NCBI GenBank assembly: GCA_002239025.1
Contig: MPNM01000006.1
Span: 1 to 64,000 of the forward strand
DNA: 64,000 nt
DNA from: Chloroflexi bacterium bin125
GTDB taxonomy: Bacteria; Chloroflexota; Dehalococcoidia; Bin125
Reading direction: 5' to 3'
The notes under the pieces are model-generated. The model was not told the DNA's origin, made no database searches, and saw nothing but the letters and a program-made list of their open reading frames with translations. Made by a program: the position numbers and the translations under genes. This document shows positions 28,520 through 57,326 of this stretch, piece after piece. Every line of letters begins with the position of its first letter. Position 1 is the stretch's first letter.

Positions 28520-29797
28520 ATGACTAGCTCACTACCGAAATGCCCGCAGTCGCTCGATGAAGTTGACATCACGTCGCCCGATGCCTTTGTGCAGCATGGA
28601 TATCCCTATCCGCATTGGGCATTCTTGCGAGAACACGCTCCCGTCTACTGGTACGAGAGACCGGGAATCGAGCCGTTCTGGGCGATCACAAAGTACGACG
28701 ACATCCAACGCATCTCCCGAGACCCGAAGACGTTCTCGAACAAGACGGACATCGCAATTCGCGCTGACCCTGGAGAGATCAACCAGACAAGCTCGACGCA
28801 GACCAATCACTTGCTGCAGATGGATCCGCCAGAGCATGCCGAGTACCGATCGTTGGTCAATCGGCGCTTCACACCTCGTGGACTGAGCATCCTTGAAGAC
28901 CGGATCGACGAGATCTCGGCGGACATCGTTGACCGAGTGGCGGCAGAACTGGTCAACGACATCTCGCGCCGAGGACAAGCGGAGTTCGTGTCCGACGTAT
29001 CGGCTCGAATGCCACTGACGGCCATTTGCGAGCTGCTTGGTGTTCCTCGCGATCGCTGGGAGGACATTCACGTCTGGACCAACGAAACGATCGGCGCCTC
29101 AGACCCCGAGTTCCAGAAGGGTCGCACGCGACGAGAGACAGCGCGCGCCGGCGCGCAGGCGCTGTTTGTCTACTTCATGCAACTTGCAGAGCAGAAGCGT
29201 AGACAGCCTGCCGACGACCTGATGACCACGCTCGTGCAGGCCGAACTGCATGGCGAGCCGCTTAACGCTATTGACCTGCTCTCCTACGCCTTCATCCTGA
29301 TTCTCGGCGGCAACGAGACGACGCGAAACGCCACCAGCGGCGGTTTGCTTGCTCTGATTGAGAATCCAGACCAGATGCAGCTATTGCGCTCGGATCGATC
29401 GCTGATCGATAGCGCCGTTGAAGAGATCTTGCGTTGGACCTCGCCGATCATCCACTTTGGACGCCTGGTCACCGAAGATGTCGAGATTGCCGAACAGTCC
29501 ATTGCTGCCGGTGAGAAGGTTGTGATGTGGTACCCGTCAGGGAATCGGGACGAGGACATCTTCGACGAACCGGACCAGTTCCTGGTTGGTCGCGATCCAA
29601 ATGAGCACATCGCATTTGGCGGGTTCGGCGAGCACTTCTGCCTGGGCGCCAACCTGGCCAGGCTCGAGTTGCGCTCGATCTTCAACCACGTGCTTGACCG
29701 GCTCGACGACATCCAACTCGACGGTGACGTGGAACGGCTGCGGTCAGGATTTGTGGGTGGAATCAAACACTTGCCAATCAGTTTCTCTGCCGTCTGA
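28520..29797 (+). CDS. Cytochrome P450, copy 1
   Basis: This 425-residue soluble P450 has the I-helix 'LGGNETTRNATSGG', the ExxR motif in 'EEILRW', and the heme loop 'FGGFGEHFCLGANLAR' with its Cys thiolate. The Gly-Asn-Glu-Thr-Thr-Arg-Asn helix is the type seen in the CYP124/125/142 group, which oxidises methyl-branched lipids and sterols. The ATG is preferred over an upstream one because a GGGAG sits at normal spacing and it fits family length. A ferredoxin partner is not next to it. Confidence 0.93.
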   Translation: MTSSLPKCPQSLDEVDITSPDAFVQHGYPYPHWAFLREHAPVYWYERPGIEPFWAITKYDDIQRISRDPKTFSNKTDIAIRADPGEINQTSSTQTNHLLQMDPPEHAEYRSLVNRRFTPRGLSILEDRIDEISADIVDRVAAELVNDISRRGQAEFVSDVSARMPLTAICELLGVPRDRWEDIHVWTNETIGASDPEFQKGRTRRETARAGAQALFVYFMQLAEQKRRQPADDLMTTLVQAELHGEPLNAIDLLSYAFILILGGNETTRNATSGGLLALIENPDQMQLLRSDRSLIDSAVEEILRWTSPIIHFGRLVTEDVEIAEQSIAAGEKVVMWYPSGNRDEDIFDEPDQFLVGRDPNEHIAFGGFGEHFCLGANLARLELRSIFNHVLDRLDDIQLDGDVERLRSGFVGGIKHLPISFSAV

Positions 29798-29878: not shown

Positions 29879-31150
29879 ATGACATCGATGACGATGACGC
29901 TAGATCAGATTGACCTGGTCACTCCCGAGCTCTACGGCTCGCGCGGCTATCCCTGGGAAGAGTGGGCGATTCAGCGCCGCGAAGCGCCGATTTACCTGTA
30001 CGACCGGCCGGGCGTGACACCGTTCTGGTCGATCACCAAGTACGACGACATCCAGCACATCTCGCGTGACCCCGAGACCTTCATCAGCAGCAAGCGGCTG
30101 GTCATTCGTTCCGCAGGATCGGGTGACGGCGGCGCCAGCGATCCGTCGCTGACAGTGCCCAATCTGATCAATATGGACCCGCCCGAGCACGGTAAGTACC
30201 GAAACACGACCAGTCGGCGATTCTCGCCGCGAGGAATGCGATTGCTGGAAGATCGGATCGACGAAATCGCCGAAGAAGTGGTTGACGAGGCAGCGGCGCA
30301 TCTAGTCGATCAACTGACCGATCGACGCTCAGGCGATTTCGTGCGCGATGTCGCGGCCAAGATGCCGATGGCGGCGATCTGTGAGTTGCTCGCGGTCGAG
30401 CGGGACTCGTGGGAAGACATCTTCCGCTACACGAACGAGTTCCTGGGATCCGAAGACCCGGAGTATCAGCAAGGCCGGACGCGTCGTGAGACCTGGCAGG
30501 CGGGGATGCGCGGCTTGCAGATGTTTTTCACCGAGCACATCGCTCGCAAGCGCCGTGAGCCGGATGACAGCGTGATGACCACGCTGGTGCAGGCCGAGAT
30601 CGATGGCGAGCCGATGCCGGATCACGAGATTCTCTCCTACGCCGTGCTGCTTATTCTGGCCGGCAACGAGACGACGCGGAATGCCACTTCTGGTGGATTG
30701 CAGGCGTTAATCGAGCATCCAGAGCAGTACGACCGACTTCGTGCTCAGCCAGAGTTGTTGGACAGCGCCGTCGAGGAAATGCTGCGCTGGACATCGCCGG
30801 TCGTGCACTTCGCCCGGACTGTGACAAAAGACACCGAGGTCGGAGGCGTGCCAATGAAGGCCGGCGAAACGCTGGCGATGTGGTACCCCTCCGCCAACCG
30901 CGACGAGGACCATTTCGTCAACCCCGACGTCTTCGACATCGGCAGGTCACCGAATGAACACCTGGCGTTCGGAGGCTTCGGCGAGCACTTCTGTCTCGGA
31001 GCCAACCTGGCCCGCCTGGAGATGCGCTCAGTCTTCCGGCACGTGATCGGCAAGTTGGACAACTTCGCACTCGATGGTGAGGTCGAGCGGTTGTCGTCTG
31101 GGCTGATCGGCGGGATCAAGCGCCTGCCGATCACATACACGGCGAGATAG
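29879..31150 (+). CDS. Cytochrome P450, copy 2
   Basis: This 423-residue P450 parallels the preceding one throughout ('ITKYDDIQHISRDPETF', 'NMDPPEHGKYRNTTSRRFSPR', 'LAGNETTRNATSGGLQALIE', 'FGGFGEHFCLGANLAR'). ExxR ('EEMLRW') and the heme Cys are intact. It is 81 bases downstream and likely co-transcribed. The pair is an apparent tandem duplication whose N-terminal thirds have diverged, so substrate range probably differs. Confidence 0.93.
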   Translation: MTSMTMTLDQIDLVTPELYGSRGYPWEEWAIQRREAPIYLYDRPGVTPFWSITKYDDIQHISRDPETFISSKRLVIRSAGSGDGGASDPSLTVPNLINMDPPEHGKYRNTTSRRFSPRGMRLLEDRIDEIAEEVVDEAAAHLVDQLTDRRSGDFVRDVAAKMPMAAICELLAVERDSWEDIFRYTNEFLGSEDPEYQQGRTRRETWQAGMRGLQMFFTEHIARKRREPDDSVMTTLVQAEIDGEPMPDHEILSYAVLLILAGNETTRNATSGGLQALIEHPEQYDRLRAQPELLDSAVEEMLRWTSPVVHFARTVTKDTEVGGVPMKAGETLAMWYPSANRDEDHFVNPDVFDIGRSPNEHLAFGGFGEHFCLGANLARLEMRSVFRHVIGKLDNFALDGEVERLSSGLIGGIKRLPITYTAR

Positions 31151-51905: not shown

Positions 51906-52826
51906 CTACTCTGCCGCGCCCGGCGATTGGTATTTGCCAGCCTCTTCGAGGACACGGCGCATCGTCGAGCCGATCTCTGCCGGGCTGCGTGAGATCACCG
52001 CACCGGCCGCTTCGAGGGCAGCCAACTTGGCCTCGGCTGTGCCTGCTTCACCCTCGATAATCGCGCCGGCGTGTCCCATGCGCCGTCCTGGAGGCGCCGT
52101 CGCCCCGGCGATGAAGGCGACGACCGGCTTGGTCATGCTGCGCTTGATGTAGGCGGCGGCTGCCTGTTCGGCCAGTCCACCGATTTCGCCAATCAGGACG
52201 ACGGCATCGGTGTCGGGGTCGTTCTGGAAGCGGCGCAGAATGGCCTGCTGTTGCTCGCCAATGATCGGGTCGCCGCCGACGCCGACGCAGGTCGATTGGC
52301 CGATGCCTGCCCGGGTCAACTGGTCGACCGCTTCGTAGACCAGCGTTCCGGAGCGTGAGACCACGCCAACGTTGCCGGCCATGAAGACATCCGGCGGGTG
52401 GATCCCGACGCGGCAATTCGAAGCCGGCTGGATGATCCCCGGGCAGTTGGGCCCGATCAGCTTGCTCTTGGAGTCGGCCAGTGCAGTGCGCACGCGAATC
52501 ATGTCGTGGACCGGCACGCCTTCGGTAATACAGACGATCAACGGCACCTCGGCGGCGATGTTCTCGAGGATCGCGTCGGCGGCGCCGGGCGCGGGCACGT
52601 AGATGATTGAGCAGTTGGCCTGTGTCTTTTCGACTGCCTCGGTGACCGTCGCGTAGACCGGGAACGTGTGATTGCCGTAGGCAAAGGTCTCGCCGCCGCG
52701 GAAGCCTGGGTGGACGCCCGCGACCACCTTGGTGCCGTAGTCGAGCGAGCGCCGGATCTGGTTCTGACCCTCGTTGCCCAGGCCCTGGATCAGCAGTCGA
52801 GTGCGATTGTTGAGAAGAATGCTCAT
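51906..52826 (-). CDS. sucD: Succinate-CoA ligase, ADP/GDP-forming, alpha subunit
   Basis: The alpha subunit binds CoA and carries the phosphorylated His. The 306-residue protein has '[20 protein letters not shown]', '[20 protein letters not shown]', '[19 protein letters not shown]', 'GVGGDPIIG' and '[19 protein letters not shown]' with the catalytic His. The ATG at 52826 is chosen over a 55-residue Arg/Gln-rich extension. It follows sucC by 58 bases. Confidence 0.93.
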
Positions 52827-52884
52827 GCGCCGGTTCCTCGTTCGGGAGTGTTCGGTCTGGCTCGGATTTGTTCGATGCTGTTGG

Positions 52885-54174
52885 CTAGTTGGTCGCGCGT
52901 GTTCGGCGTTTTCCCGACTTGGCCGCTTCGACTGCCAGTTCTGCGGCGTCGCCGAGTTCGTCTGCCGTCTGAATGTCGATGCCAGAGTCATGCAGTACGC
53001 GACGACCCTCCTCGACGTTCGATCCGTTCAACCGGACCACCAGCGGTTGCTTGATGTTGAGTTCTTTGACTGCATCAACGACGCCCTCGGCGACAATGTC
53101 GACGCGCGCCAGCCCGCCAAAGATGTTGATGAAAATTGTCTTCACATCAGGATCGTTGACGATGATCCGCAGCGCCTCAATCACGCGGTCCTTGCGGTTG
53201 ACGGTGCCGATGTCGAGGAAGTTGGCCGGCTCACCGCCGTGCAGCATCAGGGTGTCCATCGTGGCCATGGCCAGTCCGGCGCCGTTGACGACGCAGCCGA
53301 TGTTGCCGTCGAGTTTGATGTACGAACCAATGTTGGCCTCTTCAGCCTCGATCTCAGTCGCATTCTCCTGTGAGCGGTCGCGCCACTCTTCGTAGCCGCC
53401 GTGTCGGAACGATGCGTTGTCGTCGAGCCCGACCTTGCCGTCGATGGCGACGACCGTGCCTTCGGTCGTGAGTACAAACGGGTTGACCTCGACCAGCGAG
53501 GCGTCCATCTCAGAGAAGACTCGGTAGAGATTGGCGAACATGTCGCCGGCAGGCCGGATCGCCGATGAGGGCAAACCCAACTGGCTGGCAAGCGAACGTC
53601 CCCGGAATGCGGGAAAGCCCTCGACCGGATCGACAGGCACTCGCAGCACGGCTCGCGGATTGGTCTTGTTGACCTCTTCAATCGACTGACCGCCCTCGGC
53701 CGAGGCGACGATCAGCGGCTGTCCGTTGGCTCCGTCAACCTGGATTGAGAAGTAGTACTCCTTGGCGATCGAAGTCTGCTGCTCGATCAGTGCCGCCGAG
53801 ATTGGCGCACCGTCGGGACCTGTCTGGATACTGACCAGACGGCTGTCGGTGTCCATCATCGGACGGAACTCTTTGAGCGCTTCTTCGACGCCGCTGGCCA
53901 GCCGGACGCCGCCACGGCGACGACCGGAGATCTGGCCTTCGCTGCGCTCCGGTTCGCGGGTCAGGTCGTTGTACATGCGGCTGGCGCGGTCTCGCTTGAC
54001 GACGCGCCCCTTGCCGCGCCCACCGGCATGGACCTGCGCTTTGATCACCACATCGGGACCGTGTTCCTGCACCAGCGCCCGAGCTTCACGCTCGGTGGTA
54101 GCCGCGCCGCCGCCGGGGACGGGGACGCCGTGCGCCTTGAACAGTTGCTTCGCCTGATACTCGTGGATGTTCAT
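52885..54174 (-). CDS. sucC: Succinate-CoA ligase beta subunit with an in-frame insertion
   Basis: The beta subunit of the TCA-cycle enzyme binds ATP/ADP and succinate. '[19 protein letters not shown]', '[14 protein letters not shown]', '[20 protein letters not shown]', '[12 protein letters not shown]'-like '[16 protein letters not shown]' and '[10 protein letters not shown]' identify it. Length is 429, about 35 more than typical, because residues ~56-87 are inserted in the glycine-rich ATP-grasp loop (normally GGRGKxGGV). The insert contains '[15 protein letters not shown]' and is encoded by a palindrome. The reading frame is otherwise intact. Confidence 0.92.
53914..54009. repeat. Palindromic repeat inserted in sucC
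   Basis: This 96-base stretch codes for the extra residues in SucC. It holds an imperfect hairpin of GATCTGGCC against GGTCAGGTC around a CTTCGCTGCGCTCC core. Its length is a multiple of three, so the frame survives. Confidence 0.65.
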
Positions 54175-56090: not shown

Positions 56091-57326
56091 CTACCGAGCC
56101 CGTGCAAACCCGGCCGGAATCATCCCGATCACCAGGCCTGACACTCGGCGATCATCGCTTTCTCGCATCCGGCCAACGATCTGGCGCAGCACTGTTCCCA
56201 GCAGGGTCTGGTTGAAGAGCCAGTCGTTGAGGTCGGCGTCGGTGGGATAGCTGGCGCCTGGCTGCGCGGTTGCCGCTTCGTGGTAGAACGCTCGCAGATC
56301 GTCGGAGGCGAACTTCAGCCGCAGCGGCATCGGGTGCTTCCAGTCGATCTCACCGTCCGACGGCTCCGTGCCGGTGGCGAAGTCGGCCAGCAACCTGGCC
56401 AGCCCTTCGATCTGTTCGACCGTAGCGCCGCTGATGCCAATGGTGGTTCGTCCACGGCGCTTGACCTGCTCCGCATGCCACGGAGCGAGCTGTCGAATCT
56501 CTTCGACGAGCTGGTCTCGCAGCGCTTCCGACTCATTGGCAGGCTCAGGCGGAGCCAAGGCAACAGCGCAGGCCCAGGGATCGTCGTCTGAGGTCGGAGC
56601 ATCGTGCGGGTAGTCGGCGATGGTCGGCTCGGTCGCTGTCTCCAACAAATCGAGGGCGGACTTGAGCACATCGCGCTGGAAGTCGGGTTGGTCGGGCGAG
56701 CCGAGCGGTCGACCCAGCGGGAACGGTACCCACAGGGAGCGAGGCGGCTTCATCCCTTCTGGATGCGCCCGAATCAGCGAGACGCCGGTCGTGGCGACGC
56801 GGCCTTCGCTGCCGCGTTCGATGTAATGGCTGAGCGCACACACGGAGCGCGTGCAAAACGGTCAAACAGGCGTGAGGAATGCAGCCGTGACGCCATCTTC
56901 GGCGAGCAGACGGCCAATCTCTTCGCCGGTCTTCTCCAGTCGGGTCGGCTCGGGTTGGGCGCCCATGAAGGAGTAGTGATATCGGCTGATGCCGCCAATC
57001 ACACCCTGCTCGGCCAGCTCGCGCAGCCGCTCGAGCGGGAAGACGGTGTTGATGTCCTGTTGGAACCCGGAGCGGTCGAAGTTGACCGACATGTGCGACA
57101 TGCGCAAGTCGTCGAAGTCGATGTCGCCAGGGATCAGGCGGTACTCGACCGAGCCAGGATTGAACGTGCGGTCGTCGTGCGCGTGCAGACCGGCGGTCGT
57201 GACGATCGCGACAGTCGATTCAGCCAATGGCTTGGGAGTAATCCACGGCTGAGGCTCAATCTCCGGCAGCGGCAGACTGAGCAGATTCTTGGCCATGTCG
57301 GGATGCATGTCTTCGGTTCGGACCAT
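56091..57326 (-). CDS. GrdB-like selenoprotein (glycine/sarcosine/betaine reductase selenoprotein B family), Sec at an in-frame TGA
   Basis: Two adjacent open frames are in the same phase, split only by TGA at 56862-56864. Read as one protein of 411 residues, with Sec155, the joint is 'FLTPV-U-PFCTR', matching the U-x-x-C-T-R active site of GrdB-type proteins. Before it are 'ESTVAIVTTAGLHAHDDRTF' and 'DLRMSHMSVNFDRSGFQQDI' (GrdB-like), after it 'PPRSLWVPFPLGRPLGSPDQ' and a C-terminal helical part. Clostridial relatives reduce glycine, sarcosine or betaine; this aerobic branch has no known role. ATG 57326 has GGAG upstream. Sec genes are not in the window. Confidence 0.8.
56835..56855 (-). promoter_or_regulatory. 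Candidate bacterial SECIS hairpin after the Sec codon
   Basis: Starting 7 bases after TGA, GCACGC can pair with GUGUGC around a G-first 7-base loop in the mRNA. Spacing to the loop is about 13 bases, slightly shorter than usual for bacterial SECIS, so this is tentative. Confidence 0.35.

Follow-up and report, generated by a model that had tools for sequence, protein, structure and literature searches.

Results

An in-frame TGA divides one conserved reading frame

The window, i.e., the whole 64,000-nucleotide stretch that we analysed, derives from a sponge-type marine Chloroflexota bacterium and carries on its minus strand a frame that starts at ATG 57326, reaches a TGA at codon 155 (56864-56862) and closes with TAG 56093-56091. 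Translated with the TGA as selenocysteine (Sec, U), this frame yields a protein of 411 aa with one TGA-encoded residue (U155) and the junction FLTPV-U-PFCTR. We assign the following features to the locus:

56091..57326, minus strand: whole selenoprotein gene (PrdB-type UxxC domain plus C-terminal helical domain); 411 codons and TAG, in a single frame that relatives keep over its full length
56862..56864, minus strand: predicted Sec155 codon, an in-frame TGA in the motif U-P-F-C-T-R; every homologous copy (86/86) and each of the five paralogs has TGA
56622..57326, minus strand: N-terminal PrdB-type catalytic domain, about residues 1-235; TIGR04483 match, alpha/beta fold in the model
56094..56609, minus strand: C-terminal helical domain, residues 240-411, which falls in no recognised family
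56834..56850, minus strand: candidate bacterial SECIS, a stem-loop over bases +14 to +30 (U of UGA = 0), with covariation in the family

A sequence-only reading of this DNA had described two in-phase frames split by the TGA alone, FLTPV-(TGA)-PFCTR, with neither a frameshift nor an extra stop. This description held: on the minus strand between 57326 and 56091 we found no stop besides TGA155 and no frameshift. As the window is GC-rich and holds many spurious ORFs of more than 100 aa that overlap real genes, an open frame alone is not evidence, and conservation was used as the test. The joined protein aligned end to end across the TGA with 14 orthologs from the same genus (84-91% identity), and likewise with all 86 homologous copies from named MAGs. 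Codon use scored both halves, before and after the TGA, as coding and, judging by the aligned sequences, purifying selection acts on both (dN/dS of ~0.04-0.14 upstream of the TGA and 0.05-0.12 downstream).

The TGA is very likely decoded as selenocysteine

The source genome (3.68 Mb in 66 contigs, 96.7% complete) was searched for the selenocysteine machinery, the absence of which would have spoken against a selenoprotein. All four genes were present, namely selA (516 bits), selB (328 bits), selD (351 bits) and selC (66 bits), the last called by ARAGORN as a tRNA-SeC with anticodon TCA. The selD gene is itself likely to encode a selenoprotein, as its match to the selD model contains one in-frame TGA (L016, C5:154737-155678).

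At the Sec column, 86 of 86 copies carried TGA, with no TAA, TAG or sense codon among them; these copies represent 80 loci in named MAGs of Chloroflexota, Acidimicrobiia, Alphaproteobacteria, Desulfobacterota and others. The base following the TGA was C in every copy (86/86), and P156 and C158, directly after the TGA, were invariant across 50 diverse rows, meaning that the residues just past the TGA are under selection as protein. Within the source genome there are five PF07355 genes, each with a TGA at this same site, and a TGA-bearing ortholog was found in each of the 14 other genomes searched within the genus. Two of the PrdB-like selenoprotein paralogs lie in tandem, ~150 bases apart (C51:393026-394258 and 394406-395638; L002, L005), and such tandem pairs recur in sister species.

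Whether homologs carry U or C at position 155 was likewise checked. While the long forms have TGA throughout, the 13 stop-free short Chloroflexota homologs that we fetched all have Cys at the Sec column (13/13), in motifs of the LTAGCPLCHR type; Cys at exactly this position in sister proteins is what is expected of a catalytic Sec/Cys site. Across 301 Chloroflexota genomes, counted by hand, selB was detected in 62 of the 65 with a TGA form, versus 181 of the 236 without one (Fisher p 3e-4). The three TGA-form genomes in which selB was not detected are possibly incomplete MAGs.

Downstream of the TGA, a putative stem pairs bases +14..+19 with +25..+30 (six pairs), and its partners covary. Over 73 distinct homologous sequences, pairing was kept at 92.5%, versus 81.6 +/- 0.8% in codon shuffles, and all six pairs were present in 51 of the 73 sequences, whereas 2000 shuffles gave 21.5 such sequences on average and never more than 29; in these shuffles synonymous codons were exchanged among sequences sharing the same residue, and given the kinship among the sequences the figures are not strict probabilities. 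Of all column pairs, +18/+26 had the highest mutual information, and stem partners slid by 1-4 bases as a control paired less. In the window's own copy, five of the six pairs are kept, with one mismatch, and the most stable local fold uses another register. The alignments thus support a SECIS stem for the family as a whole, with the copy in the window appearing less clear-cut.

The gene therefore displays what marks a bacterial selenoprotein gene: a conserved TGA at a redox site with Cys homologs, the complete selA/B/C/D set and a family-wide bSECIS stem. From these comparisons UGA155 is very likely read as selenocysteine, as the sequence-only reading had proposed.

The N-terminal domain is PrdB-like and is joined to a helical domain

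The protein had initially been described as GrdB-like, an assignment that the profile searches did not uphold. The best family match was TIGR04483 (PrdB; E 2.6e-32, 112.1 bits, below its cut-off of 300), which aligned residues 23-232 with profile positions 14-222 of 238. It ranked ahead of TIGR01917 (GrdB; E 9e-13, 47.9 bits, below the cut-off of 602) and of Pfam GRDB PF07355 (E 2e-10, 40.9 bits, above the cut-off of 22), and TIGR01918 reached 55.8 bits, below its cut-off of 65.45. The ~235 N-terminal residues ranked PrdB first, followed by GrdF, TIGR01918, GrdH and GrdB, all of them below cut-off. The protein is not GrdB; it resembles PrdB and has, in addition, an unusual helical domain at its C-terminus.

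Both known relatives differ from it in architecture. With PrdB it shares ~210 aligned residues that include the UxxC site, and a Sec encoded by TGA, yet PrdB spans 238 profile positions as opposed to 411 residues and a helical domain here, and no PrdA proprotein was found in the genome. With GrdB/GrdF/GrdH (PF07355, TIGR01918) it shares the Sec-bearing C-terminal half of GrdB, whereas the N-terminal half of GrdB is missing, and the motif is UPFCTR rather than the UGTGTR of Chloroflexota GrdB.

The last ~170 residues are helical, contain conserved E276, D343, W369 and T374, and had no Pfam match. A full-length structure model (mean pLDDT 88.7, pTM 0.87) showed an alpha/beta fold in the N-terminal domain, and the C-terminal domain modelled alone reached a pLDDT of 87.9. 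Sequence search returned no convincing PDB chain, and Foldseek against the PDB (E<=0.001) returned no match for the whole model or for the C-terminal domain; a Foldseek comparison with viral proteins likewise gave none. The best VIA-align 2 matches were too weak to use: the model paired with Rossmann-type binding proteins (Z 7.9, rmsd 3.0, 130 aligned) and the helical domain with FadR-type TetR regulators (Z 5.0, rmsd 4.4, 104 aligned).

Long forms make up a Sec-only clade, and no reductase partner was found

The sequence-only reading had seen no GrdA or PrdA partner, an observation that we extended to the whole assembly and to GrdE-type proteins. GrdA (PF04723) and PrdA (TIGR04480) had no match in the assembly, and the control genomes were likewise silent for both profiles. 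The GrdE/PrdA family (PF09338) also had no match in this 96.7% complete assembly or in the control genomes; here the search nevertheless had a working positive control, as it detected PF09338 in 7 of 301 Chloroflexota genomes, six of them with a GRDB-type hit on the same contig, which makes its absence from the source genome meaningful. The absence of GrdA is less secure.

A member of the family was found in 80 of the 301 Chloroflexota genomes. Every long-form hit that spanned the C-terminal domain contained one TGA, and the short, PrdB-sized forms contained either a TGA or no stop. In a tree of the UxxC domain, built without authentic clostridial PrdB, the long forms constituted a single Sec-only clade (100/99). 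The short forms, whether with Sec or with Cys, fell outside this clade, and Chloroflexota GrdB had a long branch of its own (100/100).

Several further observations were made on these relatives. In the PrdB-sized sister clade (L138-L150, L153), a single site is occupied by either Sec or Cys, LTAG(U/C)PLCHR; one bacterial family has both a Sec and a Cys member side by side, and most Cys-only genomes retain selB. The Chloroflexota GrdB proteins encoded beside GrdE-type genes carry the motif UGTGTR, without a Cys three residues past the Sec (L156/L157; G037 C11, G054 C38). One MAG record that has a family member is titled Klebsiella pneumoniae (L135), a species label that looks wrong; it has neighbour families in common with a record titled a deltaproteobacterium (L131).

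The window has an oxidative gene set, and the neighbourhood offers no pointer to the substrate

The gene set of the window includes P450s and a luciferase-like monooxygenase, consistent with the aerobic surroundings noted in the sequence-only reading. Two of the P450 genes (PF00067) are in tandem, at 28520-29794 and 29888-31147. Within the genus, sucC/sucD and a hydrolase gene lie beside the selenoprotein gene; the succinyl-CoA-ligase-type sucC/sucD pair (51909-54174) is kept nearby throughout. As the hydrolase lies between sucC/sucD and the selenoprotein gene and runs in the opposite direction, there is no operon. Over the neighbourhoods of the 80 loci, no neighbour was conserved across clades, and thus none pointed to a substrate; SDR, enoyl-CoA hydratase, amidohydrolase and CoA-transferase-like genes recurred within clades only.

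Discussion

GrdB/PrdB chemistry is understood as anaerobic and multi-protein. The part of the sequence-only reading that tied the family to anaerobic metabolism did not stand, as the family is not known solely from such metabolism (PMC1088965, PMC2398784). In the excerpts of two marine surveys, PrdB-type proteins were the third most abundant selenoprotein family of ocean surface water in 2005, with 42 sequences (PMC1088965), and the 2008 GOS set held 235 Sec and 110 Cys forms of pfam07355 with UxxC (PMC2398784); a 2016 survey found Sec use about equally common in aerobes and anaerobes (PMC5029168). Given these reports from oxic seawater, finding a PrdB-like selenoprotein in aerobic surroundings is not surprising. 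According to their descriptions, the Sargasso Sea and GOS proteins share with ours the Pfam family, the UxxC motif, the kind of habitat and a common Sec form; they are listed as proline reductase, and may well include the long form. The excerpts mention neither the long architecture nor the Sec-only clade, and they are silent on the five paralogs and on missing partners. Thus, the kind of protein is already known from marine metagenomes, and its long, partner-free form is what may be new.

The biochemical precedent comes from two systems. In glycine reductase, the Sec of protein B is considered to attack a carbon of the substrate that a carbonyl group has activated by forming a Schiff base, and attack by GrdB-type Sec has been proposed for C-N and even for C-F bonds (PMC10838667). 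The FarB/FarE fluoroacetate system of Synergistota has the same kind of protein, with a carbon-heteroatom bond as the proposed target of a GrdB-type Sec; unlike our locus, for which no such partner was found, this anaerobic system retains a GrdE-like partner, albeit one without the pyruvoyl group (PMC10838667).

As no partner was found, the simplest reading is a self-contained enzyme acting on a substrate that needs no Schiff base. We accordingly favour, as the probable though by no means certain reading, a single selenoenzyme of the PrdB/GrdB UxxC superfamily that acts without partners and uses Sec as the nucleophile on a small substrate. In this scheme, Sec insertion and the substrate are inferred, and so are the nucleophilic mechanism and the recycling route. 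SelB and tRNA-Sec would decode UGA155, aided by the stem-loop just downstream, and the resulting protein would function alone, i.e., without GrdA-, PrdA- or GrdE-type partners. The helical C-terminal domain and the alpha/beta domain would hold a small electrophilic substrate between them for attack by the Sec155 selenolate, and a C-N, C-S or C-halogen bond would be cleaved, or the substrate otherwise reduced. Cys158 could then resolve the adduct on selenium, with thioredoxin or cellular thiols perhaps restoring the Se/S pair.

A rather unlikely but serious alternative is a Sec-dependent redox role, either as a thiol-disulfide oxidoreductase or in peroxide detoxification, in which UxxC cycles between selenenylsulfide and selenol and protects the aerobic cell, with no carbon-heteroatom cleavage. 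UxxC is a classic redox motif, the bacterium has an oxidative gene set, thiol-dependent redox proteins dominate marine selenoproteomes in the excerpted survey (PMC1088965), and the marks left in the sequence by a plain thiol-disulfide or peroxidase-like role would be identical. Nevertheless, the predicted alpha/beta fold does not look thioredoxin-like, its Rossmann-type matches being just weak ones (best Z 7.9), the sequence relatives are substrate-reducing enzymes, and the large conserved helical domain suggests a specific substrate.

That the gene encodes a true D-proline reductase PrdB, or a subunit B of glycine, betaine or sarcosine reductase with its partners elsewhere in the genome, is improbable and already largely refuted: the PrdB profile does span residues 23-232 at 2.6e-32, but the score falls under the PrdB cut-off (112 versus 300 bits) and under every GrdB cut-off, PF04723, TIGR04480 and PF09338 are unmatched in the source genome (96.7% complete) whereas relatives do yield PF09338 matches, the protein bears an extra C-terminal domain, and Chloroflexota GrdB sits on its own long branch (100/100). 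Least probable by far is that the TGA is a real stop, leaving two proteins or a degraded or mis-sequenced pseudogene: a candidate GTG start does lie 7 codons past the TGA (GTG 56843), but TGA and no other codon in 86 of 86 copies from many assemblies rules out a pseudogene or sequencing error, a split gene restarting at that GTG is ruled out by the conserved frame and by invariant P156/C158 between the TGA and the GTG, and selection on both sides and the full Sec machinery argue likewise against a stop.

Returning to the self-contained selenoenzyme, a broader proposal, which we put forward tentatively, is that of a Sec-only, partner-free family, mostly in oxic marine and sponge bacteria, that joins PrdB-type Sec chemistry to a helical substrate domain and cleaves a carbon-heteroatom bond of an environmental metabolite under air. 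Standard annotation truncates the gene at the TGA or calls it proline reductase, and so masks its function; the gene set here is a clear target for expression. If the proposal is true, a very abundant marine selenoprotein family would have a simpler, single-protein mechanism, strictly Sec across Chloroflexota, Acidimicrobiia and Proteobacteria, and carbon-heteroatom cleavage, hitherto associated with anaerobic reductases of several subunits, would take place under air.
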